Assembly (NCBI GenBank): GCA_029262055.1
Contig: JAJDAD010000011.1
Location: 1 to 64,000, forward strand
Direction of reading: 5' to 3'
Length of the DNA stretch: 64,000 bases
DNA from: Candidatus Zhuqueibacterota bacterium
Lineage (GTDB): Bacteria; Zhuqueibacterota; Zhuqueibacteria; Oceanimicrobiales; Oceanimicrobiaceae
Part shown: positions 36,320-62,790 of the stretch, in pieces
Layout of the letters: each line of letters begins with the position of its first letter
How positions within the stretch are numbered: position 1 is the stretch's first letter
Made by a program: the position numbers and the translations under genes
Notes under the pieces: generated by a model
Databases searched by the model: none
What the model was told of the DNA's origin: nothing
Seen by the model: the letters and a program-made list of their open reading frames with translations, nothing else

Positions 36320-36571
36320 CTATAGCCTACGGAGTTGGTCATGAAAAGCAGGTGAAGCGGTACAGTGCAACATTCTGGTCGCAATGTTCTTCTTGAGTTC
36401 TAACGCGATACATTCATTTGTCTTGCAGAGATAAGCGCCTCTGCCGGGCATTTTCTGAGCCACATCAATCTTGATTTCTTTTTGTGACGTTCGGACAAGG
36501 CGCAGCAACTGATTTTTGTCCCTTCTCTGGCGGCAGGCAATGCAAGTCCGAATCGGTTGATGAGAGGTCAT
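36320..36571 (-). CDS. ylxR: YlxR (DUF448) RNA-binding protein
   Basis: The 83-residue protein has the family signature RTCIACRQRRDKNQLLRLVR at residues 8-27 and PGRGAYLC at about 43-50. The two Cys in CIACR are typical. YlxR binds RNA, and a role as RNase P modulator or transcription regulator has been described for homologues. Its ATG overlaps the macro gene stop (ATGA). Confidence 0.92.
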   Translation of the reverse strand: MTSHQPIRTCIACRQRRDKNQLLRLVRTSQKEIKIDVAQKMPGRGAYLCKTNECIALELKKNIATRMLHCTASPAFHDQLRRL

Positions 36572-37226: not shown

Positions 37227-40200
37227 CTAACGGACGATAGCCAGCTTCTCGACAACCTCCTGCTGCCGGCCGTCGCGTTGTGCGATAATCTTGTACAGAT
37301 AGACGCCGTTGGCCAAACGATCACCGGCCCGGTCCCGGCCGTCCCAAAAATAACGATTGAAGCCAACTTGTCCGGGAAGCGTATTCAGGTTTAGAATCAA
37401 CCGGCCCGCGACCGTGTAAACTTTGATAGAGACCTGATCCGCAGACCGGGTTAGAACGTAGGTAAAATCAGTGCCGGAACTGAACGGATTGGGATAGTTC
37501 ATCACATTGGCGAGAATAAACTCATCGCTCACAAAAAACGTCGTCTGCAGGGACTCACGATTGTCGCTGTTGTCACTAGCAGCAACGGAGATCTCGTGCT
37601 CGCCCGGAGTGAGTTCCGGGCTTAGCAAAACGCTGGCGCGCAAGTCAGCCTCATCGACCGGAGCGGGCAGAAATGTCGCCTGTCCGTTGCCTGGGCCGTA
37701 GCCGATTTTTCGACCATCGAGGAGGATCGTCACCCTGCTGGTATCTTGCAGTTCAACACGGGCCAGATCACGCACCTCGACTACGATTTCGGGTTTGGAC
37801 GAGACGAATTCATTGACAGCGACCGCGCGTCCGTCAAAAGTGATCCGGATTTCCGGTCTGAGCGTATCTCGTTCAACCCAAATGTTGGTTGAAACTGTGT
37901 TGTTGGTTTCGTTGATTTCGGGGATTTCATCATCAGCATCTACGAGAATCCGGAACCTCACCTCGCCATCTAAGTCCGAAGATGGTATCATAGCCTTAAA
38001 TGGTTTTGAATCGCCCGCCGCGATCTCGTCGAGTCGAGCCTCGGCTACAGCAGACTCCGTTGCGTTTTTAGGTGTAGCGAAAACTCGGATGGTACAGCTG
38101 TCGTTGGCTGTGATACCCCAGTTGCCAACTGTAGCAGTAATCTCAATATCATCACCTACTTGCACCGTGTCGTTTCGAGCTTCAATGGAGTCATTTCCTA
38201 TGACCAGATCCGGAGGAGGAATAAAATCAGCGGACCAGTAATGAAGCACAGGCGTGGAGAGGCCGTCATTTGACGCAAATTCAGCCACCAAAGAGATGGT
38301 GCGGTAGTGACTGGCGTCAATTGCGGAGAGATCGACTTGGGTCATATCTCGTCCTAATTCGAGTAAGCTGTCCAGCCTGCCCGTGACGCGATTCCGTCCA
38401 AAAATCTTTACCCGTAGCTCAGCACCCTCGCCAATCGATGACAAATCCAGCCCCGCGGTGCCCCAACCGGTGGAAGGACCAATTTCAGGGGAACCCAGGA
38501 CACCGGTCTTGTTGTAAAGGGTGACGGTATCCTCGATGGCCACTCCTCCTTCTCCAGCCTTGACAAGTTCCTCAGGCACAGAACCCGTAGAGGCGCCTTT
38601 CTTTCCTATGATAGCCCAGGAATCACGAGCACCCACCTGCCGGGTCAAGCTACTACCGATGGCCTCCAAGGCCAAATGAGCATTCTCCGTCATTGCGTCG
38701 CTTCCTTCGTCATCAATCGCCACCAAGACGATTCTCCCGGGCTTTAAGCCGATAATGAATTGGGCCATCTCCTCCGCGGCATTTTGGTCACTGTGCGTGT
38801 CAAAATGAACCGTTGCGAGCAGCTCGCCGGTCGTTTCATCGAAGACGGCCAGATTATGCCCCCGATGATTTCCCTCCACGACTATTCCGTTGACAGAAAG
38901 CTCAGACAAATTGCCATCAAGAAAACCCTGTGACAATGCTCCGAATACAAACGTATTCTGAGAGAGAACCACCGAATCCTGAACGAATGATAAGTTCTTA
39001 GCTTCGTTTTCTTCGAACTGTGACGACGAGGTTTGCGTCCAACTCGAAGTGGCCGAAGGCTCGTACAGGAAGCTCTGATTCCGCCAGGCTCCAAAGTCGC
39101 TGCCGTCAAATGATCTGACTCGCCAGTAGTAGACTCCCTTTTCCGGGAGCCCTGTCTCCCATCTGGCAACCAAACCACTCGATTGCAGAGGTGGGGATGC
39201 CACCAGCAAAGAGCTGTTAAATGTATCCGCCTGGTCGATTTCGAAGTGATAGGTTGTCTCGCTATTGGACAGGCGACTATTCGTCGTCACAAGCGCGACG
39301 GGTGACGTGTTGACCACTCCATAATTCAGCGGTTTTATGGTCGTGAGATCCGTCAAAAAAACATCGATTCTCCGCACAGCGCTATTGTTCGCGTCTGATG
39401 ACTCTTCAATCAGGTCATGTGGATCGACACGCACTGCAAACAGGTGAGTTCCGGCTTGTTTGGGTATCGGCCATTCAATGAACAGTGAATCTACGTTCTT
39501 GACTGGCGCCATCTTCGAGACGCTGATTGGCCTCTGGGCGCCTGCGGGACTGGTGTGGCTAATATCAACTTCTACGCTATCTTGGGAAACTGGCCCATAA
39601 TTCCTTATCTTTATGCCGACAGTTTCCGTTGAGTCTGTTGCTAGTAGAAAATCACGACTAAAAGCTATATCAGCAGCATTGACGGCTAATTCTGGTTTGG
39701 CTGATAGACTCAGTCTCAGAGCAGGGTCTCCAATCACCACATATTGGTTGATGACATTTCTATTGCGCGACGACTCACCTAGTTTGCCCCACAAGAACAG
39801 CTTTGCGAGCGATGTGGCCTCTCCTATGGACCGCACTCCGCCTTGGGAAACGCTGGAAAAGAGTCCCTGCAATAGAAAGAAGTCCTGCGTAATATACCCA
39901 AATCCACTCGCGCCCCAGTACGCAATGGCCCCTTGACGATCCAGCACATATTCCTCAGACAGACTATTGCGGATGGGGTTGGCAAAGCGGGCCGAGTGAC
40001 ACGACATCCCTGTCATAAAGGGGAAGATTGTGTTTTGCCAATCGGATGGCCCTCCAATATCTATATCCCAAACCGAACTTGCGGCATGCCCAATAAAGTT
40101 GGCCCAAAGAACACCCTCCTTGATCTTTTGTGCGGCGATTTCCCGAAAGTCTAACGAAATTACTTCTTCAGTCATCTTGTTAGCTTGCCTTACCGTTCCG

Positions 40201-42983
40201 AAAAGAGGTGGGGCGCCGACGTAGTTGTCAACCAACTCAGTGGCCTGTCGGCGAAAGATAGTTTGCTCGACATCGTTGAAACCGCCATTGAAAAACAGAA
40301 ACTCTTTGTTCCACGAACTGAAGTCGCTCTCCTCGTAGTCTATAATCTTGTTGATTAGGACTTGAGCCTGTTCAGACGTTTCAACGGGAATTCGACCCAG
40401 ATGCATATCGGGTAAGATATCATCTCCAGAATCGAGAGTCACGAACCAGTTATCCGCCACTGGGTCGCCATAAGCTGGAACATAGCTTGTCTTTGAGGTT
40501 TCAGGCATCAATCTTTTGGGGTCCCACGATGCGTCTCCCAGAAGGACGACATACATTGGAGCCGGCTTCAACCAAATCGTGTAGGTGTACTTCAGAAACT
40601 CTTTGATTGCCACAGGTGAGACGATGCCATAATTGAACTCGTCGTAGATATCCTCCGCATCAACTACGAATGTGCGAAACGCGTTATGCTGCTTTCGATA
40701 GTCTGCCAAGGCCTTGGCTGATTCCCAAAACTCCCGGTGAGTTATAACAACATAGTCCGCACCGAGATCCGGGTTTCTAAGATTGCTAGGCAAATCGAGA
40801 CGCATGTTCCTGGGCTTCTGAAATTTCGACTGAGTCACGCAGTAGTAGAAACCAGAACGCATGGTATCTATGAAAGATGCGATGTAACGCGTTGCCAACC
40901 CGCTATGCAGTGTATCACTTGCAACCGCCGGTCCCGAAAACCGCTTCGATACGGTTTCGGCAACTGTTCCAGTTGAAGCTCCCTTCCAGCCGACAATCGC
41001 CCACGAATCCCTGAAGCCAACGCCACGTGACAAGCTGCTCCCGATCATTTCCAAGGCTCCGTGGGCAGCATCCGTCATTTTACCCGAGCCCTCATCCACG
41101 ATTCCGGCCAGCACGATGCTCGAATCTGGCAGGGCTTGTATGTACTCAGCCATGGCATCCGCGGCGGCACTTGAATTGTGCGTGTCAAAGTTCTGGACCT
41201 CTGTTTGTCCGGTTTCACGATTGATGACCAGTAAGTAATGACCTATTCCTTGAAACGCGCGTGTCTCAAAATCCACTTCGAATTGCACAAAATTGCCGTC
41301 ATCAAAGGCAGCGGATGTGGCCGACGGAATAGAAGCACGTTGTGTCCGTGGTTTCCACAGTTTTCCGCTTTGCGAATGAAGAATTATGGGATCGGGCTGA
41401 GCGAAATTACTAACAGCAACTTCAGCGACTTTGCCGAGCCCGGCCTGGTGAGAAAACCTCAACCCATCATCCCTGGCCGCAAAACTCCGTGGATAAATTA
41501 TCTCAACCCAGTCAAGGAGGATCTGATTCGCAACGGTTCCGAAAGTCGGCAGCAGCTTTACGCTGAGGTTATTTTCTCCATTGCGTATCATGTCATTTGG
41601 AACCGGTATTGAGATTGAGGCCGTCTCCCTATTGTCAAAAAACGCTTCGTGAATCTGGACATCATTGACGGAGATTACGACGTGGTGGTCGGGTTCAACA
41701 GGATCCAGTGTAGTGCCCTTGACCACAACCCTGACCGTACATGTAGCGACGGGTTCGTAATGGCCACTGATACGAAATCCGATGGACTCTTTCTCGTCCT
41801 CGAACAGATACCGCCAAATCCAACCTTCTCCATCATCGTATGTACTTGCTATATTCCAGCGATAGAATACCAGATCCTTCTCAACATGAAGCGTGTCCCA
41901 GTAGAATGGCACCGATTCCGTTGCCGGCGGCGGGGCCTCGACTCTGTCGTAGCGTTTCCCAGCTTCTCCATCAAAAGTGAGCCAGTAGACGTTATCATCC
42001 GTGAACATGTCGTTGAATAGACCTTCCTGTCGATTGCGCTCGGCAAGGAAACGCAGCTGATTCTGGTCGTCGAAGATACCGTCGGTGGGTCCATCAATCC
42101 AGATGGGAATCTGCTCGCCACGATTAATCACTTTGGCATTGCGCGTTTCGACAATCCCGCCTTTAAGGCCCGCATCTATGAGGTCATCGTAGCCTACCGA
42201 GTAGACGCCATCTTCATTCACATCCAACTTGAAATATGAATAGTCGGTATTGTACCAGTTCTCACCAGGGACATTGCTTCTTGTTTGGTGGTACAGAGCC
42301 GCGCTCGGGTTGAGCAATAACGGCCCGACAGCTCTAATAAACTGAGAATCGACGCCAAGTGCAGCTCTGCTTGGCTCAGCAGACGTCGAACTCCAGTCCA
42401 CTTGAAATCTCAGTTTCTTGCAACGCCGTATTGTCTTTCGGATGGGGTTGTACTGAATCGGGTTGACCCCAATTCTGAACAGGTTCACGCCTCGGATCTT
42501 GCCCTCTCTTCCATGCTCTATAATGTTATGTGGCCAGAAAGAATCTGAGCTGTAAGCAGGTCCCTCGTCCCACAGATAGTCCACTATATTGGCTTTGAGA
42601 TCTGTCTGGGCCGCTGCGCTGGGCAAAACGCGAAATTGACCTTCTATTTCGTCAGTTTCAACCTCCAGAATAGAAATAGTGACTTCTGCTCCAGGTGGGA
42701 CTTGGGCTAACAGCCCGAGTGTAGGCACCTCTGGACTACCGGGAAGGTTCCTGACACCGTAGCCAGTAACAAAAATCTGATGATATTTTCTGCCCTCAAC
42801 CTCAAGTGGACTGATATTGATTTCATAAGGTTTAAGCGTGATGAGCAGTCGGGACTCGCTTACGCGTTCCACAGAGACACGCTCATTCGGCGAAGAGCCT
42901 CCCCAAGCCAAACGGGTTGCCAAAAGCAATAACGCGATACACGCACTCGCGCGAAACAACAGAGGCATCATTATGTTTCGCAT
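37227..42983 (-). CDS. C25 (gingipain-type) peptidase, PorU2-like, with two ILEI/FAM3-like domains
   Basis: This 1918-residue secreted protein starts with a signal peptide (FRASACIALLLLATRLAWG) and a C25 propeptide-like region (about 30-330). The first ILEI-like domain (about 574-680) has NFDTHNSSAAADAMAEYI, GSSLSRGVGFRDSWAIVGWKG and similar strings. The C25 catalytic domain (about 735-1110) has His966 in NFIGHAASS and Cys995 in GMSCHSARF, spaced like the gingipain dyad. A second ILEI-like domain (about 1370-1480) repeats FDTHSDQNAAEEMAQFI and RDSWAIIGKKGASTG. CARDB-like Ig modules (about 1590-1720) and a MNYPNPFSSGTDF C-terminal domain follow. The resemblance to PorU-type sortases or gingipains is inferred. 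It is 6 bases downstream of the WecA-like gene, at the end of the polysaccharide locus. Confidence 0.88.
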   Translation of the reverse strand: MRNIMMPLLFRASACIALLLLATRLAWGGSSPNERVSVERVSESRLLITLKPYEINISPLEVEGRKYHQIFVTGYGVRNLPGSPEVPTLGLLAQVPPGAEVTISILEVETDEIEGQFRVLPSAAAQTDLKANIVDYLWDEGPAYSSDSFWPHNIIEHGREGKIRGVNLFRIGVNPIQYNPIRKTIRRCKKLRFQVDWSSTSAEPSRAALGVDSQFIRAVGPLLLNPSAALYHQTRSNVPGENWYNTDYSYFKLDVNEDGVYSVGYDDLIDAGLKGGIVETRNAKVINRGEQIPIWIDGPTDGIFDDQNQLRFLAERNRQEGLFNDMFTDDNVYWLTFDGEAGKRYDRVEAPPPATESVPFYWDTLHVEKDLVFYRWNIASTYDDGEGWIWRYLFEDEKESIGFRISGHYEPVATCTVRVVVKGTTLDPVEPDHHVVISVNDVQIHEAFFDNRETASISIPVPNDMIRNGENNLSVKLLPTFGTVANQILLDWVEIIYPRSFAARDDGLRFSHQAGLGKVAEVAVSNFAQPDPIILHSQSGKLWKPRTQRASIPSATSAAFDDGNFVQFEVDFETRAFQGIGHYLLVINRETGQTEVQNFDTHNSSAAADAMAEYIQALPDSSIVLAGIVDEGSGKMTDAAHGALEMIGSSLSRGVGFRDSWAIVGWKGASTGTVAETVSKRFSGPAVASDTLHSGLATRYIASFIDTMRSGFYYCVTQSKFQKPRNMRLDLPSNLRNPDLGADYVVITHREFWESAKALADYRKQHNAFRTFVVDAEDIYDEFNYGIVSPVAIKEFLKYTYTIWLKPAPMYVVLLGDASWDPKRLMPETSKTSYVPAYGDPVADNWFVTLDSGDDILPDMHLGRIPVETSEQAQVLINKIIDYEESDFSSWNKEFLFFNGGFNDVEQTIFRRQATELVDNYVGAPPLFGTVRQANKMTEEVISLDFREIAAQKIKEGVLWANFIGHAASSVWDIDIGGPSDWQNTIFPFMTGMSCHSARFANPIRNSLSEEYVLDRQGAIAYWGASGFGYITQDFFLLQGLFSSVSQGGVRSIGEATSLAKLFLWGKLGESSRNRNVINQYVVIGDPALRLSLSAKPELAVNAADIAFSRDFLLATDSTETVGIKIRNYGPVSQDSVEVDISHTSPAGAQRPISVSKMAPVKNVDSLFIEWPIPKQAGTHLFAVRVDPHDLIEESSDANNSAVRRIDVFLTDLTTIKPLNYGVVNTSPVALVTTNSRLSNSETTYHFEIDQADTFNSSLLVASPPLQSSGLVARWETGLPEKGVYYWRVRSFDGSDFGAWRNQSFLYEPSATSSWTQTSSSQFEENEAKNLSFVQDSVVLSQNTFVFGALSQGFLDGNLSELSVNGIVVEGNHRGHNLAVFDETTGELLATVHFDTHSDQNAAEEMAQFIIGLKPGRIVLVAIDDEGSDAMTENAHLALEAIGSSLTRQVGARDSWAIIGKKGASTGSVPEELVKAGEGGVAIEDTVTLYNKTGVLGSPEIGPSTGWGTAGLDLSSIGEGAELRVKIFGRNRVTGRLDSLLELGRDMTQVDLSAIDASHYRTISLVAEFASNDGLSTPVLHYWSADFIPPPDLVIGNDSIEARNDTVQVGDDIEITATVGNWGITANDSCTIRVFATPKNATESAVAEARLDEIAAGDSKPFKAMIPSSDLDGEVRFRILVDADDEIPEINETNNTVSTNIWVERDTLRPEIRITFDGRAVAVNEFVSSKPEIVVEVRDLARVELQDTSRVTILLDGRKIGYGPGNGQATFLPAPVDEADLRASVLLSPELTPGEHEISVAASDNSDNRESLQTTFFVSDEFILANVMNYPNPFSSGTDFTYVLTRSADQVSIKVYTVAGRLILNLNTLPGQVGFNRYFWDGRDRAGDRLANGVYLYKIIAQRDGRQQEVVEKLAIVR

Positions 42984-42989
42984 AAGAGG

Positions 42990-44099
42990 TTAGTCGCCAT
43001 TAGGCACCGAACTCTCCAGTTTGGCTCTGTTTTCCGAGAGACCTGTGGGAAGTTTCTCAAATCCTGAAGACCGCCAAGACAGGGATAGAGAATCGAAGCA
43101 TCCTAGCCTCATTCCTGCGAAAAAAAAGACAGCGGCATTGCAAAGAAATGACAAAAGGCCTGCGGTTGGACTGAGATGAAGCACCACAAGGCTTACAACT
43201 CCACAAAAAAACGTCGCACCGAACAGCAGGAAAACTGCAGTGCGCTGGTTTGAAACTATCATCAACAGACGATGATGGAGATGCTCTCTGTCACCAACAA
43301 ACGGATGCTGCCCTCGACTTAGTCGGCGTAAGATAGATATCACGGTGTCGAATAGTGGAATAAAAAGCAGAGTCACAACGGCCAATATATTCACTCCGTC
43401 CGAGACAGAAAAGGCTCGCAATGCAACTATAGAAAGCAGATAGCCAAGATACAGGCTGCCATTGTCTCCAAGAAAGATCCTGGCAGTAGAGAAGTTATAT
43501 GGCAGAAATCCCAGTGCACTTGCGCCGAGTATTAGCGCTATCGCGGCCACATCAAAATGATTGGTTGCAGTAGCACCGATGAAAACAAAAAGCGCTACGA
43601 TCACAGAGAAGCCAGTGGCCAGACCATCCACTCCGTCTATCAGATTGAGTGCATTGGTGACGGTCAGAATCCACAAAAAAGTGAGTGGAATCGCAAACCC
43701 TTCCAGAGCGTAGGAGCCCAGCAGTGGTATATAGATTTGGTCCATCACTACTCCGCTTTGAATGGCAATGAGAGCCCCTATAGACTGCCCCAGGAGCTTG
43801 TAGTTGCACTCGATCTCATGCAGGTCATCGATTAGCCCCGTGAGCAGCACGACCACGCTTCCGAGGATCACCCCCCACCAGTCCAGAAAACTATCCATGC
43901 AGAGCCAGCAGAGGCTCAAACACGTCACAAAAGTGACAGAAATGGCAAGGCCCCCGAGATTGGGAATATGGCCCTGGTGAATCGTTCGGTGATTTCGAAC
44001 TGCATAAATCTCTTTCTTAATTGCAATTCTTCTAACAATCGGTGTAAACCCTAGTGATGCAACCAGAGCCATCCCCGCCAATACCGACAACAAAAACAT
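42990..44099 (-). CDS. WecA/TagO-like polyprenyl-phosphate sugar-1-phosphate transferase
   Basis: The 369-residue protein starts at ATG 44099 (AAGGGA upstream) rather than 44123. It has about ten TM helices. Family motifs are visible: NHRTIHQGHIPNLGG (loop I), TGLIDDLHE, NALNLIDGVDGLATG (catalytic Asp loop) and IFLGDNGSLYLGY, plus the His-rich loop VGDREHLHHRL. It transfers a sugar-1-phosphate, usually GlcNAc-1-P, from UDP-sugar to undecaprenyl phosphate. That makes it the probable initiating enzyme of the locus, though it lies at its 3' end. Confidence 0.93.
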   Translation of the reverse strand: MFLLSVLAGMALVASLGFTPIVRRIAIKKEIYAVRNHRTIHQGHIPNLGGLAISVTFVTCLSLCWLCMDSFLDWWGVILGSVVVLLTGLIDDLHEIECNYKLLGQSIGALIAIQSGVVMDQIYIPLLGSYALEGFAIPLTFLWILTVTNALNLIDGVDGLATGFSVIVALFVFIGATATNHFDVAAIALILGASALGFLPYNFSTARIFLGDNGSLYLGYLLSIVALRAFSVSDGVNILAVVTLLFIPLFDTVISILRRLSRGQHPFVGDREHLHHRLLMIVSNQRTAVFLLFGATFFCGVVSLVVLHLSPTAGLLSFLCNAAVFFFAGMRLGCFDSLSLSWRSSGFEKLPTGLSENRAKLESSVPNGD

Positions 44100-44156
44100 A
44101 ATAAGTCCCTTTCTTTTCTGCAATCCATTTATTGTTCGTTACGAATGCTTTGTTGT

Positions 44157-45365
44157 TCAGTTCAAGTTCATCAGAACCCGATAGTATTGCTCTGTCGCTA
44201 TTCTTCGCTCAAAATTCTCAAGAAAATAGCGGTGGCCATTTTCTCCAAACTTCTTGGCCAGATCGCTATCACTGTGCAGGAGTAATATCTTCTCAATGAA
44301 CCCATCAACATCCCCTTCATCAATCTGAAAACCGCACTCCGCGGACTGAATGAGTCTCGCAATGTCCGAATCGTTCTTGCCAACCATGATAACCGGTCGC
44401 GCGGCGGCCATGATACCATAGATTTTACACGGCACAATGAACCCGTCAAATGAGCTCTTTAGCGATATCAGTGACACATCTCCAGCAGAGATTGAGAAGG
44501 GCAAGTCGTGACGTTTCTGGTAAGGGAAACAATACAAGTTCGCTAGATCCCACCGTTCCTTAGCCATCAGAATCTCCTTCTTTCTGACACCATCGCCGAT
44601 GAACAAAAACTTGATGTCCTCAAGATCGCGCAGAGAGACAATTCCGCCGAGAAACGTTTCGAAATCATGTGCAACACCCATGTTCCCTGAGTACTGTACT
44701 GTAAAGTACTTCTCGAGATTGTTCCGAGAAATAAATCGGTTTTCGTTTCGGCAAACAGGATAGATCTGTTTCACGTCGGCCCAATTGTGAATAGTGCTAA
44801 TCGTTGATGTTGCCACACCTTTGTTCGTCAGGGTTGTCTTCATCTTCTCCGATATGGCAATGACTCGGTCCGCGTGACGGTAGCTCTGGTTCGAGATGTG
44901 ATTCATGATGCCCGTCAGAATCCCATCTTTTTTCAAGACGCCGAACGCAACAGCTGTATCAGGATAGACGTCCTCTACCAGGTAAACAAACTTGCTACGC
45001 TTTACGACCTTTAGAAGCAAGCCAACCAAAGAAAGAAGTGGCGGCGTTGTTAGAGCAATGACCACATCTTGTTTACACAAAAACAGACTCCTGACCGTGA
45101 CCAAAAAATAAAAAGACAAGTAATCCAAAAGCCTTGCCGCATTGTTTCGCTTTCCCAGAGATGAGCTATTCACCCTGATGATCTTGGCATTGGGTTGCCT
45201 CCCGTTCCGACTTCCGTCCAGCTTGCCACCGTTGTACCGAGAATTGCTGGTGAGAACCGTCATCTTGATATTCCGGGACGCTAAATCCTCGGTCAGATCG
45301 GTCATGAGCTGAGCTGTTGCTGCAACATCGGGATAGAAATACTGGTTAATCAACAGTACTTTCAT
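44157..45365 (-). CDS. GT4-family glycosyltransferase (WbuB-like)
   Basis: This 402-residue GT-B enzyme begins KVLLINQYFYPDVAATAQLM, the start typical of WbuB-like transferases. The GT4 donor site (about 210-330) includes VQYSGNMGVAHDFETFL and KSSFDGFIVPCKIYGIMAAARPVI. It probably adds an N-acetylated or 6-deoxy amino sugar to the lipid-linked repeat. It overlaps the upstream gene by 20 bases. Confidence 0.92.
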   Translation of the reverse strand: MKVLLINQYFYPDVAATAQLMTDLTEDLASRNIKMTVLTSNSRYNGGKLDGSRNGRQPNAKIIRVNSSSLGKRNNAARLLDYLSFYFLVTVRSLFLCKQDVVIALTTPPLLSLVGLLLKVVKRSKFVYLVEDVYPDTAVAFGVLKKDGILTGIMNHISNQSYRHADRVIAISEKMKTTLTNKGVATSTISTIHNWADVKQIYPVCRNENRFISRNNLEKYFTVQYSGNMGVAHDFETFLGGIVSLRDLEDIKFLFIGDGVRKKEILMAKERWDLANLYCFPYQKRHDLPFSISAGDVSLISLKSSFDGFIVPCKIYGIMAAARPVIMVGKNDSDIARLIQSAECGFQIDEGDVDGFIEKILLLHSDSDLAKKFGENGHRYFLENFERRIATEQYYRVLMNLN

Positions 45366-46566
45366 GTCTCGTTTTCAATACTCGTGTATAGGCTTCCAGT
45401 GTCTTGTCCATTATCAGATTCCAAGTAAAATGCTCATCCACTAGTTTCGCCGCATTAGCGCCCATTGTCGCACGTAATCCCGGCTCGCTCAACAAAGTGG
45501 CCAAATCCTCTGCTATTTCATCCGGCTCGCACGAAGTGACCAGGCCTGCGCGGTATTCTTCGACGATGCCCATACGACACTTGTCCGTGATCAGGACGGG
45601 CGTGCCGAAGGCCAACGCTTCCAATATAGCCATTGATGAGCCTTCTGAAAAAGACGTTAACGCGAAAATGTCGGCACGCTTGAGAAGGTGAGACTTTTTT
45701 GAGCCTGCCACCAATCCGATGAACGTAACGTGGTCACATAAATCCAGAGCTTCGATGAGATTGGCCAGGTCTTTTTTGTGGTCCACTTCATCTGGTCCCG
45801 CGACAACTAACAGGACGTTGGGATGCTCGGCAACAACTTGCGCCAGCGCGCGAATCAGCAGAGGGAGCCCTTTGGTGGGATGGATACGACCGAGGAATAA
45901 TATGACTTTCTTTCCAGAATAGTCAAAAGCCTGAGTAGCATCGCCAGTGCTCGGTGAATCAGGCACTGCCACGCTAACCCCGTTGGGAATAATGGCCACA
46001 TCAGAGTCAATGCCTTGACAACGCAACTGCGCAAGCTCAGCGTCGGACAAGGCTATCAACATACCCGCTTTGCTTAAGACACGTTTCCCGATCAGCTTCA
46101 TGTAGACAAGTTTCTTGAGTTTTCTGTGTCTCAATCTGTAAGCATCAAGCATCCCATGGATGTGAACAATGTACGGGACATCCTTTCTGTTGCAAATTTT
46201 CGCCGCTTGCAACGCCGGATAACAGAAGAATTCATGCAGGTGCACGATGTCGAAATCAGCGACATGCTGATTCAGGTATTGCCTTAACTCAGGAGAGTAA
46301 AAAAAGCCAACGGTTCGGCTGATATAGGGCAGAAAAGAAAAAGCTTTCTCGACCCGAATGCGCTTGAAATAGAGAACTTCCAGTCCGTCGTAGGACCTTG
46401 GATTGAGGCCATACGAAAACTCCTGATCGCCGTTTGCTGTCGTTGTGGCCACCACGACCTTGTGTCCCTGGCTTTGGAGCTGCTTGCCAAGCTGCAGCAC
46501 AACATGAATTGGGCCACCATATTGCCATGCCGGAGCAAAATATGGGATAACCTGAAGAATTGTCAT
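45346..46566 (-). CDS. GT4-family glycosyltransferase
   Basis: This 406-residue GT-B enzyme has the acceptor-side start VIPYFAPAWQYGGP.HVVLQL and the donor site ILFLGRIHPTKGLPLLIRA, VVAGPDE and SEGSSMAILEALAFGTPV with the EX7E motif. It is one of three GT4 enzymes in the locus; sugar specificity is not predictable. Its start overlaps the previous gene by 4 bases (ATGA). Confidence 0.93.
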   Translation of the reverse strand: MTILQVIPYFAPAWQYGGPIHVVLQLGKQLQSQGHKVVVATTTANGDQEFSYGLNPRSYDGLEVLYFKRIRVEKAFSFLPYISRTVGFFYSPELRQYLNQHVADFDIVHLHEFFCYPALQAAKICNRKDVPYIVHIHGMLDAYRLRHRKLKKLVYMKLIGKRVLSKAGMLIALSDAELAQLRCQGIDSDVAIIPNGVSVAVPDSPSTGDATQAFDYSGKKVILFLGRIHPTKGLPLLIRALAQVVAEHPNVLLVVAGPDEVDHKKDLANLIEALDLCDHVTFIGLVAGSKKSHLLKRADIFALTSFSEGSSMAILEALAFGTPVLITDKCRMGIVEEYRAGLVTSCEPDEIAEDLATLLSEPGLRATMGANAAKLVDEHFTWNLIMDKTLEAYTRVLKTRHESTVD

Positions 46567-47738
46567 CGCCCGTTACTTCCGTTGCCATCAAGAAATCTCT
46601 CTGAGATTACCCTCCATGACAGTTGCTGTTGTACCAATTGCCGACCCACACGGCCCATGTCTTGCCGCACCTCGGGATGTGACACAAGAAAGTCAATCTT
46701 GCTACAAAGATCAGATGCGTCACCAAGCCGATAGCAGAGTCCGTTTCCATCTGTGGTTCGTTCCCTCACAGGCTCAAGGTCGCAACCAATTATTGGACGG
46801 CTGCAAGCCATCGCCTCTAGCATACTCGCTGATATGGTGTCACCCCACACGCAAATATCCGCCGCGCTATAGTATTCTGGCAAACGTCTGTTGAGAACAA
46901 AATCATGAAAAATCACCATTCGTCGCTTCTCATCATCAAGCAGACTCAGCAGATGTTGTTTGTAATGCCAGTCCACTGAACCGACCATAAGAAGATGTAC
47001 CTTGTCGCCTGCTACCTGTGAAAAAGCTCGTATCAACGTTTCGACACCCTTGTCCGGATTGATCTTGCCGGTACTGACCAGTAGTATATCCGACTCGGAG
47101 ATGTCCAAGTATTCCCTAAGCCTCTCTCTTTGACTCCTATCATATACATACAAATCGCTGTCAGCACCAAGAGGTATATGTTCAATTTTTTCTCGCGGAA
47201 TTCCATATAGCTTTTGCATAATCTCACAGGACTCATCTGTTACTCCGATGAACTTTTCCACCTGATCAAGGTGGCTGCCAATCCGCCTGCGCTTCATTCC
47301 GTTATAGTATCTCGCCAGCCAGCTCTTGTTCCTCACATGCTCTATAAGATGCTCGTCAACTACAAGTTTGAATCTATGTCCACGTTGTTTGAGCCTCATC
47401 GTTCTAAACGCATTTGCCAGTATATTGTGCACAATTACACAGTCCGGCTTCAAACTCAGGATGGTGTCTTCGAGATTAAGTAGCCAAACTCTGTACTTGA
47501 GCTCAGCAAACGTTCTGAGACGAATGACGGGGATGCCTTCCTCCACCCGATGTCCGGCACCGCGGATTCTCCGGCCTATGAGGGGTTTGTAGGCTACATC
47601 GTAATTTCGAAAAGGATAGTATCTATCTGACGTTATCACTGTCACATTATGGCCACATCGAATCTGTTCTCTTGCCAAGAAATACTCCTGATAGCCAAGA
47701 CGAGGTTGAAAGTAATTTATTACGTGGACGATATTCAT
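46563..47738 (-). CDS. GT4-family glycosyltransferase
   Basis: The 391-residue enzyme uses ATG 47738, which overlaps the polymerase stop (ATGA); the open frame extends 22 codons further upstream without support. It starts NIVHVINYFQPRLGYQEY. Donor-site motifs are LLVSTGKINPDKGVETLIRA and WGDTISASMLEAMACSRPII. It assembles the repeat unit at the cytoplasmic face. Confidence 0.92.
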   Translation of the reverse strand: MNIVHVINYFQPRLGYQEYFLAREQIRCGHNVTVITSDRYYPFRNYDVAYKPLIGRRIRGAGHRVEEGIPVIRLRTFAELKYRVWLLNLEDTILSLKPDCVIVHNILANAFRTMRLKQRGHRFKLVVDEHLIEHVRNKSWLARYYNGMKRRRIGSHLDQVEKFIGVTDESCEIMQKLYGIPREKIEHIPLGADSDLYVYDRSQRERLREYLDISESDILLVSTGKINPDKGVETLIRAFSQVAGDKVHLLMVGSVDWHYKQHLLSLLDDEKRRMVIFHDFVLNRRLPEYYSAADICVWGDTISASMLEAMACSRPIIGCDLEPVRERTTDGNGLCYRLGDASDLCSKIDFLVSHPEVRQDMGRVGRQLVQQQLSWRVISERFLDGNGSNGR

Positions 47739-49066
47739 GGCCGTAGATGGTTTGGTGTCCCTTCTCGCCGTAGCCAGCGTAATTCGCTTATTAGAGCGTA
47801 GCACAAGAATGTACTCAGCACCCCGAAAGTCATTAGGGAGGTAAATAGTCCCGATGCGGCGAGTTTAGCACAGTTGATGATCAGAGCTACGTAAGCGCCC
47901 ATTACAAGAGACGTTTTTCTCGCAAGCGAAAACCAAAGATTGTAGGCTTGTAGAAGCATTCCTACGAGGAACGATGTGCCGATTGTGCCCAGATAGCCGA
48001 AATCCGCCCAGGCATCACCGATGAAGACGCAATTCCATGTCGTATGAAACTTGCTAAAAAGCTGTCTTGGAATAAAAGTATGTGGTGGAATTGCGTCTGC
48101 ACCAGCGAACGAGGCGACCATTTGCGAACTTGCCCCTAACAGAAAGTCGTGCTTTTCAGGATAAGTGTCGAAATAGAGTTGCAGGACTCGATTCGGTTCC
48201 ATAGTCAGACGAAACCACGTATTGTAGAGCGCTTGCCCGTAGCCAATGTCATATTGGATCGTAAACAAGAAAGGAACTGCTGCCAACAAGATAAATGCCA
48301 CAAAAACAAATGTTTTTAGCAAATCTAACTTCAGGCTCAAACCATTGTGACGCACGTAGTGGCAGACGAACAAACCGATCAGAAAAAACAATGCCGTGCC
48401 TTTGTGGCCGGACACTACTCCGTGATAGATGTTCAGCGCCGCAAGCGACCAGAATGCTATTGAGTACCATCCGGTCTTTATCATCTCTTTGGCGAAATAG
48501 AATACGAACGCAAGAAAAGGCAGTAACGCCGCCCCACCGATATTTGCAAGGTAGTGCGCAAAGCTATTTGCAGAAGCAGTAGTTTTCCCAAACAGGAGTC
48601 TTGCGACCTGATAATTCTCCGGGGCAATATCACCAAGCAGCAACGACAATGGGTTGAGTATCGTGGTCGCCGCATACAACTTGTAAACCATCAAGGCAGT
48701 CAACGAAATTACGACAGGCCAGAAAAGCAATGGGTTAGCCCCAAGCGTTGGCACAAAACGAATCCGGCGTTCCCTTCTCGCCGCGCCATGGGAAATGGCA
48801 TCTACCATCAAGATTCCGCCCAACATGCAGACGTACATGACAACAAGATTGAGTATGTAAGTAACCAAACTCTCAGTTGAGATTTGTACGCCCAGCTTTG
48901 GGTTGATGCCAATTGAAAACGGTACATTAATTCCATGGAATACAAATACCAGGGTGATGAAGAGGGTGAAGGTATTTATGACCGTAAAGCACTTGGTCGA
49001 CCTCTGAAACAGGACGAGCATCCATGCAAGAAAACCAAACCAAATTACAGTCAATAACAGGTTCAT
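47735..49066 (-). CDS. Wzy-like O-antigen/exopolysaccharide polymerase
   Basis: The 443-residue protein has about ten to twelve TM helices with a large periplasmic loop late in the sequence (about 290-350, with FDTYPEKHDFLLG and DAIPPHTFIPRQLFSKF). Length, topology and the short cytoplasmic ends fit the poorly conserved Wzy family (oligosaccharide repeat-unit polymerase). It would join undecaprenyl-linked repeats in the periplasm together with the Wzz/GumC-like protein. It is one base after the deacetylase gene. Confidence 0.82.
   Translation of the reverse strand: MNLLLTVIWFGFLAWMLVLFQRSTKCFTVINTFTLFITLVFVFHGINVPFSIGINPKLGVQISTESLVTYILNLVVMYVCMLGGILMVDAISHGAARRERRIRFVPTLGANPLLFWPVVISLTALMVYKLYAATTILNPLSLLLGDIAPENYQVARLLFGKTTASANSFAHYLANIGGAALLPFLAFVFYFAKEMIKTGWYSIAFWSLAALNIYHGVVSGHKGTALFFLIGLFVCHYVRHNGLSLKLDLLKTFVFVAFILLAAVPFLFTIQYDIGYGQALYNTWFRLTMEPNRVLQLYFDTYPEKHDFLLGASSQMVASFAGADAIPPHTFIPRQLFSKFHTTWNCVFIGDAWADFGYLGTIGTSFLVGMLLQAYNLWFSLARKTSLVMGAYVALIINCAKLAASGLFTSLMTFGVLSTFLCYALISELRWLRREGTPNHLRP

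Positions 49067-53002: not shown

Positions 53003-53013
<11 letters not shown>
52192..53013 (-). CDS. SAM-dependent class I methyltransferase
   Basis: The 273-residue protein uses ATG 53013, which overlaps the flippase stop by 11 bases. The frame extends far upstream inside the flippase gene and is not used. SAM motifs are VALDLGCGKGPISVLLSALG (motif I), YGVDSDVRELILA, FDLIICSEVLEHLAAIG and LVVISMPNVLSGYYFG. It probably methylates a sugar or lipid-linked intermediate of the polysaccharide. The substrate is unknown. Confidence 0.88.
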
Positions 53014-56269
<3,256 letters not shown>

Positions 56270-57463: not shown

Positions 57464-59176
57464 TCAACGATTGATGCCAAAATTCAAAGAAACCTCGTTC
57501 CGATCTATCCCGGCCCGGCTGCCGTCGGAGAGTTCAATGTTCTTTGAAAACGCCACACTGCCGGACAGTCCGAGGTAGAAATTTCTAAATACTTCGTAGC
57601 TCGTTTCCAGGCCCAGCCGGCTTCTCTTTTCCAGCGCTCCGCCCAGGAATCTTGAACTTACGGAAGCGCCTTCACCAAACGGCTGACTAATCTCTCCACC
57701 GGCATTATTGTTGGGTTCATTGTCGCCATGGCGAAATTTGGTAAAATTTGCCGCTACCACCAGACTCTTCGAAAAGCGATAGACCGCTTCCGCAAAAAGT
57801 TCATCGGAATTCGGGCCGATGCGGTGGCCGAGTCCGGTGTTGAAATGCGTGAACTGGTTGATCTGTCGACGATGCGAATACAGAAACGGCCGGGTGCGGG
57901 CATACTCCAGCCTCAGATCGAGATTAGGGACACGAAGAGCATCGACCCACAAACCGCCTGCCAGCAGCCCCGTCTTGTTGCCAAAAAAATTGCTGCCCAA
58001 TTTGGTTGTAGAGAGATCATCGATGAACAACTCGCCATAAAGCTTGGTATTGGGAATCGCCATAAACTCGAAATCAAAACCCAGGGTCGCGTTGTCATCA
58101 TCGCTCAAAAAATGCTCGGCGGAGCGATAGAAGTTGATCGGGTTCAGGTAGGCGATCTCCAGGCGGCGATTGCCGAATATCACAGTCTCGTGCAAGCCGA
58201 CATTGAGCCATCTGGCCACGTCGATCTCGATACGATGGGCCACCAGACTTTTAGGTGCTGTCCTTCCGTCCTGCTGCGCGATCCTGGGAAAAGTACGCAA
58301 GAATCCCCAAAGCCAGGTGAACTTCAGACGCCAGAACCTGGACTGCAGTTTTATTTGGTCAAAAGAAGTGGCGTTGTCGGAAAGCGCCAAAGCGCCGTTT
58401 GCTCCCGGCCCCCAGTAATTTTGGTTCTTGCCCAACTGGACTTGCAAGTAAGGAAGTTTGAAGACGAGGTAGGCGTTGGTTTCATCGTGCCAGATGTGGG
58501 TGCCGTAGCCGTTGACAAAGCCAAGACCCGGCAGGGAAATGTCAAACCGGTCCGGGTATGAGCGTGTGCCCCATTCTTTGGTGTCCCTGAAATCAAAAAA
58601 GAAACCGATGTGCTCACCCAGGTTACCACGCACGCGGAAGCCATGCGACCGCTCAAAAACTCGCTCGGTTCCGCGCACCGAATCAGTGCCGGCATAAAGC
58701 AATTGCTGTGAAAAGACCGGGTCGACAAATGCCTGAAAATCTGCACTTTTTATACTGAACAGGTTGCGGTTGTTTTTGTACAAAAAGCCTGGAAAAGCCT
58801 TACCGAAGACCGGGTGCTGCTTGAGCTGTTCGATTTGCGTGCGGTAGTGAATACCGTTGGAGCCGGTTGCCTTTATGAACTCTTCTTTAAACTCAAACCG
58901 GAGAAAGGCAAGCTGTCGCGTCTCTACCGGGTTCAACCTGGCGCCTTGCCTGACCCTGTCCTGCACTTGGACCAGGTAACGCACAACCTCATCGCGACTG
59001 AAGGGTTTCACACCGTTGAGTACACCACGGACCAATCCCCTGGCCTCCATGCGTTCGATAAAATCATAGGCCCAGTGCTGCAGCGGCAGATCGGTGGACT
59101 GCGCCAGGGCCAGTGGCCCCCAAAATGTGCAATATAATAGAACAGTCGCGCCACAGATCGTTCGAAACTGAAACAT
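57464..59176 (-). CDS. Wzi-like capsule assembly outer-membrane protein
   Basis: The 570-residue protein starts at ATG 59176 with a signal peptide (TVLLYCTFWGPLALAQ). A short N-terminal helical region (HWAYDFIERMEARGLVRG) precedes a long beta-barrel-like part with alternating aromatic residues and NRNLFSIKSADFQAFVDP. Barrel-like strands continue to the end (NEVSLNFGINR). The region near 220-330 resembles Wzi, which anchors capsule to the cell surface. It lies between the Wzz/GumC-like protein and the sugar genes. The exact family should be tested. Confidence 0.65.
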   Translation of the reverse strand: MFQFRTICGATVLLYCTFWGPLALAQSTDLPLQHWAYDFIERMEARGLVRGVLNGVKPFSRDEVVRYLVQVQDRVRQGARLNPVETRQLAFLRFEFKEEFIKATGSNGIHYRTQIEQLKQHPVFGKAFPGFLYKNNRNLFSIKSADFQAFVDPVFSQQLLYAGTDSVRGTERVFERSHGFRVRGNLGEHIGFFFDFRDTKEWGTRSYPDRFDISLPGLGFVNGYGTHIWHDETNAYLVFKLPYLQVQLGKNQNYWGPGANGALALSDNATSFDQIKLQSRFWRLKFTWLWGFLRTFPRIAQQDGRTAPKSLVAHRIEIDVARWLNVGLHETVIFGNRRLEIAYLNPINFYRSAEHFLSDDDNATLGFDFEFMAIPNTKLYGELFIDDLSTTKLGSNFFGNKTGLLAGGLWVDALRVPNLDLRLEYARTRPFLYSHRRQINQFTHFNTGLGHRIGPNSDELFAEAVYRFSKSLVVAANFTKFRHGDNEPNNNAGGEISQPFGEGASVSSRFLGGALEKRSRLGLETSYEVFRNFYLGLSGSVAFSKNIELSDGSRAGIDRNEVSLNFGINR

Positions 59177-59288
59177 TCTCGACGACTTTCGGTTAAAATT
59201 GAAGCGTTTTGTTGTGAAGAGGATAGCTAACTTGCCGACACGTGAGTGGTGATCCGGAAAAGACCATGCGGACCGACGACTGAGGCCT

Positions 59289-60560
59289 CTACTTCTTCCC
59301 AGGTTTCGCAAAGTACTTTTCTATTCTCTCCCTGAATTCATGATAGTCCCGCTTTAGCTCGCCGCCAAAATGCTGGATTTTCTCAAAATCCGCCTCATTT
59401 GCCCTGACGTTATTCGCATACTCGATCAAAAAGCTCGCGAAAACGCTGAAGGAAAATCCAAGAAACAAAGCGACCAGCACCAGAAGTTTCCGCTTCGGGC
59501 TAGTGCGTTTTTCGGGAGGTAAGGCGACATCCAGGACCTGGACGGTCGGGGTATCTCTCGCCTCCTGAATTTTTGCGCTGTAGTACTGCTGATTGAGGAG
59601 TTGCCAGACGGTCTCCTGCACCTTGACTTCGCGTATCAAGCTTGCAAATTTCAGACCAACTTCCGGCACTTTCGCAAACGGAATAAAATAGTCTCTCTGC
59701 TCCTCAAACGGGACGGAATTCCCAAATTGCAGGTGTTCAAACTGTTTGCGCAGCTCATATAGTTCCTTCTGCAAGCGCAAGATGACAGGGTTGTCGGCCT
59801 TCATGGTTTGCTTGGCCACTTCCAGCTCAACCTCTCTGCCGATGATGGTCCCCTTGATTTCACCGGCCTTTTCAATCGCGACCCTGGTCTGCTCCTCCAG
59901 GTTAACCGCTTTAGATTCTGACTGGAAGGTCGCGAGCTGCTGCGATGCCCGCGCCAGGTTTGCTTCGGTCAGGGCCAGTTGCTCCTCGATGTAAACGCGC
60001 GAACTTTTCGCCTTCGACAGGCTCTTTTCCTGATTCACCTTGTCCAGCGCAGCCACAAACGCCCGTGCCACTTGCGCCGCCAGGTCCGGATCGCGCATCT
60101 CCACCGAAATCTCGATGACACCCTGATCGTTTGCGGAAAGCGATGCTTTTTTGTGCAACGTGGTCAGAGCATCCTGCCTGCCGTCCTCGTCCCATATCTG
60201 AAAGAGGTTTTGCTGCTTGCCTGCAAAATCGTAAGTGGTATTCAAAACCAGTTCGCCGACAGTCCGGCTGCTGAGGATCTCTACAAAGATCTCCGAAGAC
60301 GTGGTTCCCAGGCCACTGAGATTCAAGAATGAAGCATCGCTATTGGCCAGCAGACTGGTCAGACTTTGTGATTTCCCTTCGTCAGGCGGCAGCAGCGTAG
60401 TGGTCGCAGTGTACGTTGAGGGCAAAACAAAACTGACGAGCAGAGCCAGCAGGCCGGCAAAAAGCGTGTTGCGGCCTATCATTCTCCTGTGGTCGATGAC
60501 TACGCTGAGGTAATCAAGCAAGTTGATTTCGTCATCGGGTTTGTGTTCCGGCTTGTTCAT
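59289..60560 (-). CDS. Wzz/GumC-like chain-length determinant
   Basis: The 423-residue protein has the PCP layout: an N-terminal TM (NTLFAGLLALLVSFVLP), a long periplasmic coiled-coil region (about 60-375) and a C-terminal TM (LLVLVALFLGFSFSVFASFLIEY) preceded by the family Pro-rich segment LPPEKRTSPKRK. No BY-kinase domain is fused, so polymer length may be set without tyrosine phosphorylation or by a separate kinase elsewhere. It lies between the Wza-like and Wzi-like genes. Confidence 0.9.
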   Translation of the reverse strand: MNKPEHKPDDEINLLDYLSVVIDHRRMIGRNTLFAGLLALLVSFVLPSTYTATTTLLPPDEGKSQSLTSLLANSDASFLNLSGLGTTSSEIFVEILSSRTVGELVLNTTYDFAGKQQNLFQIWDEDGRQDALTTLHKKASLSANDQGVIEISVEMRDPDLAAQVARAFVAALDKVNQEKSLSKAKSSRVYIEEQLALTEANLARASQQLATFQSESKAVNLEEQTRVAIEKAGEIKGTIIGREVELEVAKQTMKADNPVILRLQKELYELRKQFEHLQFGNSVPFEEQRDYFIPFAKVPEVGLKFASLIREVKVQETVWQLLNQQYYSAKIQEARDTPTVQVLDVALPPEKRTSPKRKLLVLVALFLGFSFSVFASFLIEYANNVRANEADFEKIQHFGGELKRDYHEFRERIEKYFAKPGKK

Positions 60561-60657: not shown

Positions 60658-62658
60658 CTAATTACTCGCCCTATCAATGATCAGGTAGATCGAAGCGAGT
60701 TGCGCGGCCACCGTCACCGTCTGCAGAAAGACAGGCCAAAACCTTCTGTCTGACTTGCGTGGCACCCATATGATGTCGCCTGCTGCGAAGGAATCCACAT
60801 CTTCGTCATCCACCACCTCCCCCGACACCTTAATCACCTTGGTCTTGCGCAGCTCGGCGTCCCAGGAAGCGCCACCCGACCTGGCAAGATAGTACTCAAG
60901 CTTAGCGCCAGGCAGATAGGTGACGCCGCCAGGTTTGGCGACGCTACCCGTAACGGTGACAATTCTGGGCGCTTTGGGAATTACGATGACATCGCCGTCT
61001 TCCAGTATGACGTCCTCACTGCGGTCGCCTTCTCGCATCAGCCGCCCGAAGTTCACAACGATCTGTTTTACGTCTGCGGAATTCTGACGCATGACAAGAT
61101 ACTGGTATTCCAGTTCGGTCATATCTTCGCGTCCCATATCCTGCAATCGCTCAAACTCCTTGTCAAACCGGAGACGTGAACTTTCCCGAATCAGACGCGC
61201 TTCCTGCAAGAATGCGTCATCGGTAAACCCGCCTGCCTTTGTCAGAATTTCACTCAAGGACGTTTTGTCTTTTTCGATGGGATAAGCACCAGGAAACAGG
61301 ACTTCGCCATCGACCTGCACCAAAAGTCCAACTTGCCACTCCGGGATCTGGCGGATAAAAACCTGATCATCTTCCTCGAGCAACGGGTTACTGTGGCCGT
61401 TGCCGCCAAGCTGTTCCTGCAAACTGACTTTCTGGAACCTGGTTGGCTGGCCCGGGTCAACTTTCGCGACCTCAGCTTCCAGGGTGTATGCTTTTCGGGT
61501 CAGATTGCCTGCCTTCAGAATCAGATCCTCCAAGTGCATATTGTCTGCCAGATCGTACGTGCCGGGACGCCTGATTTCGCCGTAAATGGACACTTGCCTT
61601 TTGTGCAGTTGCTCAATTTTCGAGTAGACCGTTACCGCATCGTGGTTACGAAGGACAAGATCCAGCGCACTGTCGCCTTGTGCGATTGCAGAAAAATCAG
61701 GGTACACTACGGCCGCTCCGCCATCAGCCCGCATGCGAGTTACCTCGATCTTGGATTCGAAGGCCAAGTCCGTGAAACCGCCGGCCAGTTCGATCAAATC
61801 CGAAAGACGCTCCCGCTGGCCTGGCTTGAGTTCAAAAATGGCGGGCCGGTGTACTTCTCCGCGGATACTGACTTTATCGTGTGCCACAGGTACAAAAACC
61901 CTGTCCCCAGCCTGTAAAAACACGTCTTCGGTCCCGGCCCCACTCATGAGGAACTGGTATAAATCGACGGATGCAAACACACTTTCATCCCGAATCAACT
62001 GAATGTCGCGGATGGAACCCTTCGAAGTCGGACCGCCCGCGACGATAATGGCATCCAGTACCGTATTCAGAGCACTAAGCAAATATCTGCCGGGACGCCG
62101 AACGTCGCCCACCACCGAAACCGTGACGTTTTTGGGCTGCAGCAACATGATATCCAGATGGAAATTATCGTAGTATTGCGAGAGTTTATTTTCCAGGCTG
62201 CGCTCGACTTCCGCCAGGTCGAGGCCCCAAACGTACAGGACACCTGCGGGGGGGACAAACACCTTGCCTTCGACATTGACAACCACATCGAGGGTCTGCT
62301 GGACGTTGCCGAGCAGATAGATCCCCAGGCGATCTCCGGGGCCAAGCGTGTACTCGCCGGGCAATGCCATGGACTCGGAACTGAACTCAAGGACGTCGCC
62401 GCGCTCGCGAGTAAACAAATCAAATCCAAAAGGAGCCAGGCTGACACCGGATTGCACGGCCGGCTGCATGGATGCATCGCTGCCCTGGGTTATCAGGACC
62501 CGTGAACTTTCGGAAAAAGGATTAGTGGATTGTACTTGATAAGGGGGGGCAAACCGGGACGTGTCCGTGGGCGCCTTTCGGCTCATTTGTCCGGAGGCCT
62601 GGTGCGCAGAAGCGATAAGAAAAACAAAGGCGCAGGCCCATCTCAACATCCTGTTCAT
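60658..62658 (-). CDS. Wza-like SLBB polysaccharide export protein
   Basis: The protein is about 666 residues from ATG 62658; the frame can also start at a TTG at 62670. A signal peptide (RWACAFVFLIASAHQASG) precedes the Poly_export domain (LGPGDRLGIYLLGNVQQTLDVVVNVEGKVFVPPAG, seen in parts). Several SLBB repeats follow, with VSVVGDVRRPGRYLL, VSIYGEIRRPGTYDL and VTVTGSVAKPGG. A C-terminal hydrophobic helix (VFLQTVTVAAQLASIYLII) differs from classic Wza. It forms the outer-membrane/periplasmic export channel for the polymer and is the first gene of the locus. Confidence 0.92.
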   Translation of the reverse strand: MNRMLRWACAFVFLIASAHQASGQMSRKAPTDTSRFAPPYQVQSTNPFSESSRVLITQGSDASMQPAVQSGVSLAPFGFDLFTRERGDVLEFSSESMALPGEYTLGPGDRLGIYLLGNVQQTLDVVVNVEGKVFVPPAGVLYVWGLDLAEVERSLENKLSQYYDNFHLDIMLLQPKNVTVSVVGDVRRPGRYLLSALNTVLDAIIVAGGPTSKGSIRDIQLIRDESVFASVDLYQFLMSGAGTEDVFLQAGDRVFVPVAHDKVSIRGEVHRPAIFELKPGQRERLSDLIELAGGFTDLAFESKIEVTRMRADGGAAVVYPDFSAIAQGDSALDLVLRNHDAVTVYSKIEQLHKRQVSIYGEIRRPGTYDLADNMHLEDLILKAGNLTRKAYTLEAEVAKVDPGQPTRFQKVSLQEQLGGNGHSNPLLEEDDQVFIRQIPEWQVGLLVQVDGEVLFPGAYPIEKDKTSLSEILTKAGGFTDDAFLQEARLIRESSRLRFDKEFERLQDMGREDMTELEYQYLVMRQNSADVKQIVVNFGRLMREGDRSEDVILEDGDVIVIPKAPRIVTVTGSVAKPGGVTYLPGAKLEYYLARSGGASWDAELRKTKVIKVSGEVVDDEDVDSFAAGDIIWVPRKSDRRFWPVFLQTVTVAAQLASIYLIIDRASN

Positions 62659-62790
62659 GAAAGAAAACAACCGAATTCTTTAAGAGTATTCCTTTACCGA
62701 ATTGTAAAAGATAGTAAAAGGCCTTTACACAGTCAATACTAATCTGGCCTGCCAAAAGCGTCGGGCGGCCATTTACATTTTGCCGGTTTC

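Follow-up and report, generated by a model that had tools for sequence, protein, structure and literature searches.

The window considered here, a stretch of 64,000 nucleotides from a Candidatus Zhuqueibacterota genome, encodes on its minus strand a protein of 1918 aa in a single open frame (Table 1). From the N- to the C-terminus, the protein consists of a likely signal peptide, a C25 propeptide, a first ILEI domain (ILEI1), Peptidase_C25, CARDB, a second ILEI domain (ILEI2), CARDB and a T9SS sorting domain. The signal peptide is predicted and was read by eye from the sequence. Membership in the Peptidase_C25 family is clear (238 bits relative to a Pfam cut-off of 23), and the catalytic Cys/His pair is intact in every ILEI-bearing row of the 71-row C25 alignment. 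A second CARDB stretch is also matched by Pfam. The sorting domain scores 30.3 bits with TIGR04183 (cut-off 23), and 34.8 bits in a genome-wide count of such tails. The Pfam order bears out the sequence-only reading that the ILEI blocks flank the catalytic domain: ILEI1 ends ~60 residues before the C25 domain, and ~280 residues, with a CARDB Ig-like region among them, lie between the end of the C25 domain and ILEI2. The ILEI1-C25-ILEI2 arrangement was unreliable in an AlphaFold model of 976 residues (pTM 0.57), and no contact between ILEI and the active site is claimed. A macro-domain gene is located directly downstream (36568-37104), as it is in several relatives (L050, L069, L103).

Table 1. 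Positions of the 1918-aa protein, its domains and the adjoining polysaccharide genes in the window
Feature	Position	Strand	Evidence
ILEI-bearing PorU/PorU2-like C25 protein, 1918 aa	37227..42983	-	open frame, Pfam, NCBIfam
T9SS type A sorting domain, residues 1830-1902	37278..37496	-	TIGR04183
CARDB Ig-like domain, residues 1591-1698	37890..38213	-	Pfam CARDB 1.4e-20, 2 stretches
ILEI2, residues ~1373-1475	38559..38867	-	Pfam ILEI and fold; Arg, Asp, Arg all kept
C25 catalytic domain, residues 744-1091	39711..40754	-	Pfam Peptidase_C25 2.7e-70
Catalytic Cys995 codon	39999..40001	-	column is Cys in 70/71 aligned C25 rows
Catalytic His966 codon	40086..40088	-	column is His in 70/71 aligned C25 rows
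ILEI1, residues ~579-680	40944..41249	-	Pfam ILEI; Ile, Asp, Arg at contact positions (2/3 kept)
C25 propeptide domain, residues 36-199	42387..42878	-	Pfam Propeptide_C25 5.7e-11
Likely Sec signal peptide, residues ~1-28	42900..42983	-	basic start, hydrophobic core, WGGS
PNPT (WecA-like) sugar-phosphate transferase, polysaccharide-repeat starter	42990..44123	-	Pfam Glycos_transf_4 1.8e-35
Three GT4-type glycosyltransferases	44157..47804	-	Pfam
Wzx-like flippase	53003..54325	-	Pfam Polysacc_synt 1.1e-12
GDP-mannose 4,6-dehydratase	55253..56269	-	Pfam GDP_Man_Dehyd 5.3e-146
Wzi-like capsule assembly protein	57464..59311	-	Pfam 1.1e-25
Wzz-like chain-length determinant	59289..60560	-	Pfam 2.2e-12
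Wza-like polysaccharide export protein	60658..62670	-	Pfam SLBB 7.8e-48, Poly_export 1.5e-13

Two similar blocks carrying FDTH, DEGS and DSWAI motifs had been recognized within positions 38540-41265. Both copies are covered by this span, and the motifs are found at residues 599 and 1394 (FDTH), 630 and 1425 (DEGS), and 659 and 1454 (DSWAI). The blocks are 45% identical over 147 residues (E=4e-28). The Pfam ILEI family (PF15711) is matched in 2 stretches with 155.9 bits (E=3.8e-46, cut-off 27), and a whole-genome search, in which the separate copies score 94.3 and 73.8 bits, finds no ILEI domains in the host beyond these two. The repeat, the Pfam scores and the motif positions together exclude chance. 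When the ILEI2 block is compared with PDB sequences by phmmer, the POMGnT1 stem (6.4e-13), TMEM2 and FAM3A, B and C are detected, and no others. An AlphaFold model of ILEI2 (pLDDT 95.1) is predicted to have the FAM3 beta-beta-alpha fold: Foldseek matches in the PDB at E<=0.001 are exclusively the POMGnT1 stem (3.8e-11), FAM3A/B/C and TMEM2, all with probability 1.00, and the best unrelated match has E=0.24. Thus the ILEI/FAM3 identity proposed earlier is confirmed by HMM, which is significant for both copies, by PDB sequence and by fold, with no rival fold at E<=0.001. The ILEI domain had also been described as a pattern of animal proteins. The matches to FAM3, POMGnT1 and TMEM2 agree with this, but 54 of the 82 phylum genomes, and Bacteroidota/Ignavibacteriota, have the domain as well.

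C25 proteins of the same architecture, which the earlier reading proposed to list, are indeed widespread. Named relatives identify the phylum as the KSB1/Calditrichota group. In the phylum there are mostly two ILEI copies in one frame of ~1900 aa, and mostly one ILEI-C25 gene per genome, conserved over families. Four families (f12, f13, f15, f16) have a single ILEI at the ILEI2 place, in frames of ~1750-1800 aa. Among sampled Bacteroidota/Ignavibacteriota genomes, ILEI is found in 45 of 158, and the design is the same with one ILEI, or with two that are both C-terminal to C25. Proteins of the latter type (L123, L127, L128, L129, L133) are ~2400 aa where complete. The order of ILEI duplication is left unresolved by a domain tree of ~100 columns; that ILEI2 would be the older copy is suggested only by the C-terminal place of ILEI in single-ILEI proteins. 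Two genomes labelled Nitrosomonas and Actinomycetota (L108, L113) have KSB1-type ILEI-C25 genes, and these are probably binning errors.

The protein had been called a gingipain-type protease. The C25 domain and a gingipain-compatible fold stand, but by sequence the enzyme belongs to the PorU/PorU2 sortase lineage and is not gingipain-like. A phmmer comparison of the C25 region with PDB sequences gives PorU (6za2, 5.4e-17) as the sole related chain; the gingipains RgpB and Kgp are not found with E up to 1. The modelled fold of the catalytic domain does not discriminate, as gingipains and PorU are matched equally well. Gingipain membership was therefore ruled out by sequence. The top NCBIfam models are PorU2 (NF052324, 383.4 bits) and PorU (NF033707, 303.9 bits), and formal membership in either was rejected, as the curated cut-offs are 450 and 420, respectively. 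The PorU2 match is broken up, with ILEI1 inside the model span, and a sister protein reaches 447.3 bits. In a tree of 70 C25 domains, the 51 ILEI-bearing domains are split by a branch (support 100/99) from 19 ILEI-less domains, which belong to true PorU and related C25 proteins of the phylum. In several phylum genomes, C25 genes that match true PorU in size (~1330-1390 aa) are arranged in tandem pairs (L090, L091). In addition, the host genome has a 394-aa C25 frame (L040:4511-5692) without both catalytic residues, which is a fragment or an inactive copy. Bacteroidota/Ignavibacteriota also contain an ILEI-less PorU-like class of ~1907-1933 aa (L214-L218), with PorU2 scores of ~240-264 bits.

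Canonical Bacteroidota PorU2 proteins, mostly scoring >450 bits, contain an ILEI in the corresponding C-terminal position, diverged almost beyond detection by Pfam. It is found by hhalign (98.3%) and by iterative HMM, at <1e-5 in 9 of 14 proteins and weakly in 5; PorU controls gave no significant ILEI match in this test. The NCBIfam PorU2 model ends ahead of the ILEI region. ILEI has thus probably belonged to the PorU2 lineage from early on, hidden by the end of the model, as judged from a limited sample. An ILEI at the C-terminal place, which the 1918-aa protein has, is a criterion proposed here and stands outside the curated PorU2 definition.

The T9SS background of the host is well represented. 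SprA, a true PorU, the PorV family and PorZ are all present, and SprA is found in 82/82 genomes of the phylum. The true PorU is a separate C25 protein (845 bits), and it too has a sorting tail. There are ~147 sorting tails in the genome. PorZ (NF052228, 272 bits) is encoded elsewhere in the genome. The idea that ILEI replaces a missing PorZ was rejected, as 74 of 82 genomes, the host among them, have a PorZ match. With respect to sortase function, the 1918-aa protein has the catalytic Cys and His, in a host with T9SS.

It could be argued that the protein is a secreted C25 protease retained at the surface, tethered by ILEI to the cell's own polysaccharide, and that it digests or matures external proteins instead of acting as a sortase. 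This would accord with its own sorting tail, the intact Cys/His, a predicted fold as close to gingipains as to PorU, and a gene placed in a polysaccharide locus. We consider it rather unlikely, however, since sequence search detects PorU and no gingipains, the top curated models are sortase ones, and a gene mostly present once per genome and conserved over families is unlike a variable protease repertoire. The suggestion in the sequence-only reading that ILEI targets a protease to the polymer is weakened accordingly: given the PorU/PorU2 lineage, the likelier job would be attachment of cargo to the polymer.

That the gene lies right after a polysaccharide locus, as noted at the outset, is borne out by the PNPT gene directly upstream and by the genes that follow, from glycosyltransferases to Wza. 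The placement is conserved. A PNPT gene is at most three genes away in 26 of 27 other two-ILEI loci, drawn from families f1 to f11, vs 0 of 19 ILEI-less C25 loci of the same phylum, the gene models outside the window being greedy open frames and most loci coming from draft genomes. Nearest-neighbour Pfam counts are 25/79 (PNPT) and 23/79 (GT1) for the two-ILEI set, compared with 0/75 and 2/75 for the ILEI-less set (Fisher, p=8e-9 and 5e-6, respectively, although kinship of the species overstates independence). Single-ILEI and Bacteroidota members were counted in two neighbour sets, one with GT2 (13/78), GT1 (12/78) and WecG (4/78), the other with GDP-Man dehydratase (9/60), WecG (6/60) and GT1 (6/60). 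Canonical PorU2, with a degenerate ILEI, has GT2 in 2 of 56 neighbours, and a PNPT or GT4-type gene in 0 of 15 loci. By BLAST, 5 of 27 Bacteroidota loci have glycan neighbours, a count that misses GT2, WecG and sugar-nucleotide genes, and Pfam counts were therefore used there; the Bacteroidota ILEI-less control has 2 Wzi, 2 Polysacc_synt_2 and 1 sugar transferase among 40 neighbours. The wider ILEI-less control (L214-L223) has SIS/GATase (GlmS-like), SecA and Wzi genes nearby. This comparative synteny supports the earlier suggestion that the ILEI domains may be glycan-binding modules tied to the adjoining locus.

A position directly beside PNPT in most loci, and the Wzi, Wzz and Wza genes in the window, could also be expected of a factor for maturation or assembly of the polysaccharide machinery. 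Here ILEI would recognize the nascent polymer, and C25 would process Wza/Wzi-type or other surface proteins and so let polymer export or surface anchoring work. We know of no precedent among C25 proteins for such a role. The PorU lineage, moreover, suggests sorting tails as substrates, and this explanation appears quite improbable.

Sugar-contact residues provide further information. POMGnT1 contacts beta-GlcNAc through Arg129, Asp179 and Arg207. Two proteins that retain this triad, FAM3C and C. elegans Fam3L2, bind sugars, and C. elegans Fam3L1, without two of the three residues, does not (PMC9802357). The triad was mapped through the phmmer alignment of ILEI2 with the PDB, in which one offset, 86, accounts for the residue type at each of the three positions, and the numbering is inferred from this. 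The triad columns are the R of 'RG', the D of 'DEG' and the R of 'RDSW'. Within the phylum, the full triad is present in 28/29 N-terminal and 23/29 C-terminal ILEI domains, and in 9/11 of those that occur singly. Bacteroidota domains that are clearly ILEI have it in 16/29 cases, and the canonical PorU2 domains that were aligned in 0/13. In the window, ILEI2 has R/D/R and ILEI1 has I/D/R, the sole loss of the first Arg among the 29. In the double C-terminal Ignavibacteriota/Bacteroidota members, the first contact Arg is missing from the second ILEI copy in each of the six cases counted, which suggests a separate duplication. The triad columns are well conserved, yet no more so than structural Gly, Trp and Ser positions. 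Retention of the triad therefore supports sugar binding rather than proving it, and a lectin likeness of the ILEI domains is supported at this predictive level.

ILEI might instead be a structural or protein-docking module with no sugar ligand, with the linkage to glycan loci a matter of shared regulation only. Fam3L1 provides an example of a non-binding ILEI (PMC9802357), the ILEI retained in canonical PorU2 is diverged and has no triad, and ILEI1 of the window misses one triad residue. But most domains of the glycan-locus clade have the triad, and the clade outside such loci lacks it, and we regard a purely structural module as improbable.

The reading put forward here is of a second, PorU2-like T9SS sortase with a built-in ILEI lectin, which would keep hold of the local polysaccharide as the acceptor to which sorted cargo is joined. 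This reading builds on what computation revealed, i.e. family, fold, an intact catalytic pair, kept sugar-contact residues and conserved placement in glycan loci, and its chances of being correct seem to us evenly balanced. In P. gingivalis, PorU takes off the sorting tail and the new C-terminus is joined to A-LPS in a sortase-like reaction (PMC4560394), and PorZ, a carbohydrate-binding protein, delivers A-LPS to PorU (PMC8545088). For the ILEI enzyme we infer transpeptidation, ligand, acceptor and cargo as follows. The protein would be exported by Sec and then translocated by the T9SS via its own sorting tail. Once at the cell surface, ILEI2, and perhaps ILEI1 too, would grip a HexNAc-containing stretch of the local polysaccharide, the product of the adjoining Wzx/Wza-type locus, with its repeat begun by the PNPT encoded directly upstream. 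The Cys995/His966 pair would then cut the sorting tail of the cargo, and the new C-terminus would be transferred to an amine-bearing acceptor on the polymer.

It should be pointed out that several findings count against this reading. The protein scores under both the PorU2 (383/450) and PorU (304/420) cut-offs. It has its own sorting tail, as cargo proteases do, although the host PorU has one too. ILEI1 of the window is without the first contact Arg, and canonical Bacteroidota PorU2 is without the triad and outside glycan loci. Furthermore, PorZ and PorU are also in the host, so the standard route is not replaced.

The closest known systems share some of these properties. PorU (NF033707; 6za2) has the same C25 lineage, propeptide and catalytic Cys/His, is a partner of the T9SS, whose parts are in the host, and attaches cargo to a surface glycan of P. 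gingivalis (PMC4560394); however, PorU of the phylum is ~530-600 aa shorter, has no ILEI and is not beside glycan genes. PorU2 (NF052324), a putative T9SS sortase, gives the best curated match, which spans the N-terminal and catalytic parts, and its canonical members have the diverged ILEI at the equivalent place. It differs in that the ILEI enzyme is under the cut-off, has a second, N-terminal ILEI, keeps the triad in ILEI2 and lies in a glycan locus. PorZ (NF052228) binds carbohydrate at the surface and supplies the sortase with glycan (PMC8545088), which is the role proposed for ILEI, but it is a separate protein of two beta-propellers, whereas the ILEI enzyme would have its glycan holder in the same chain. 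The POMGnT1 stem, FAM3A-D and TMEM2/CEMIP (GG/ILEI domain) share fold and sequence family and, as far as ILEI2 is concerned, the mapped beta-GlcNAc-contact residues, and in POMGnT1 the lectin is likewise joined to an enzyme that acts on glycoproteins; these are animal proteins with other catalytic partners. RgpB and Kgp share the C25 fold and catalytic pair, but there is no sequence match and their function is extracellular proteolysis. Exosortase genes occur with exopolysaccharide genes (Haft 2006, as cited in PMC7468200), and the exosortase/PEP-CTERM system, as it is described there, resembles the present case in having a sortase encoded with such genes; the likeness is limited to genomic logic, as exosortase is an unrelated membrane enzyme.

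What is known of acceptor choice by T9SS sortases comes chiefly from PorU/PorZ and the A-LPS of P. gingivalis. Literature searches found no text on PorU2, no account of bacterial ILEI domains with the terms used, and nothing on point for KSB1 with T9SS. We tentatively suggest, with somewhat less than even confidence, that the ILEI enzymes may form a distinct class of T9SS sortase, encoded inside the polysaccharide locus whose product they use and equipped with their own FAM3-type lectin to grip the acceptor glycan, and that different cargo may go to different polymers. PorU/PorZ would then serve one glycan and the ILEI enzyme the other. If so, acceptor choice would be directly testable, as the lectin-fused enzyme is encoded beside the genes of its likely acceptor; uncultured phyla would have a second route of surface display, and the FAM3/POMGnT1 lectin domain would gain a bacterial setting with a predicted ligand.

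ILEI is also found outside C25 proteins. In three phylum genomes (L075:6619-9582, L076:4299-7223, L077:4763-7645), it is N-terminal in T9SS-tailed CotH-kinase proteins of ~960-990 aa, in the order LTD, ILEI, CHB_HEX/Fn3-associated, CotH and sorting tail, according to a Pfam scan of two of the three. ILEI is present as well in large non-C25 proteins (~1180-4280 aa) of Omnitrophota and Acidobacteriota, including Sulfidibacter corallicola (L116, L138, L141, L142).
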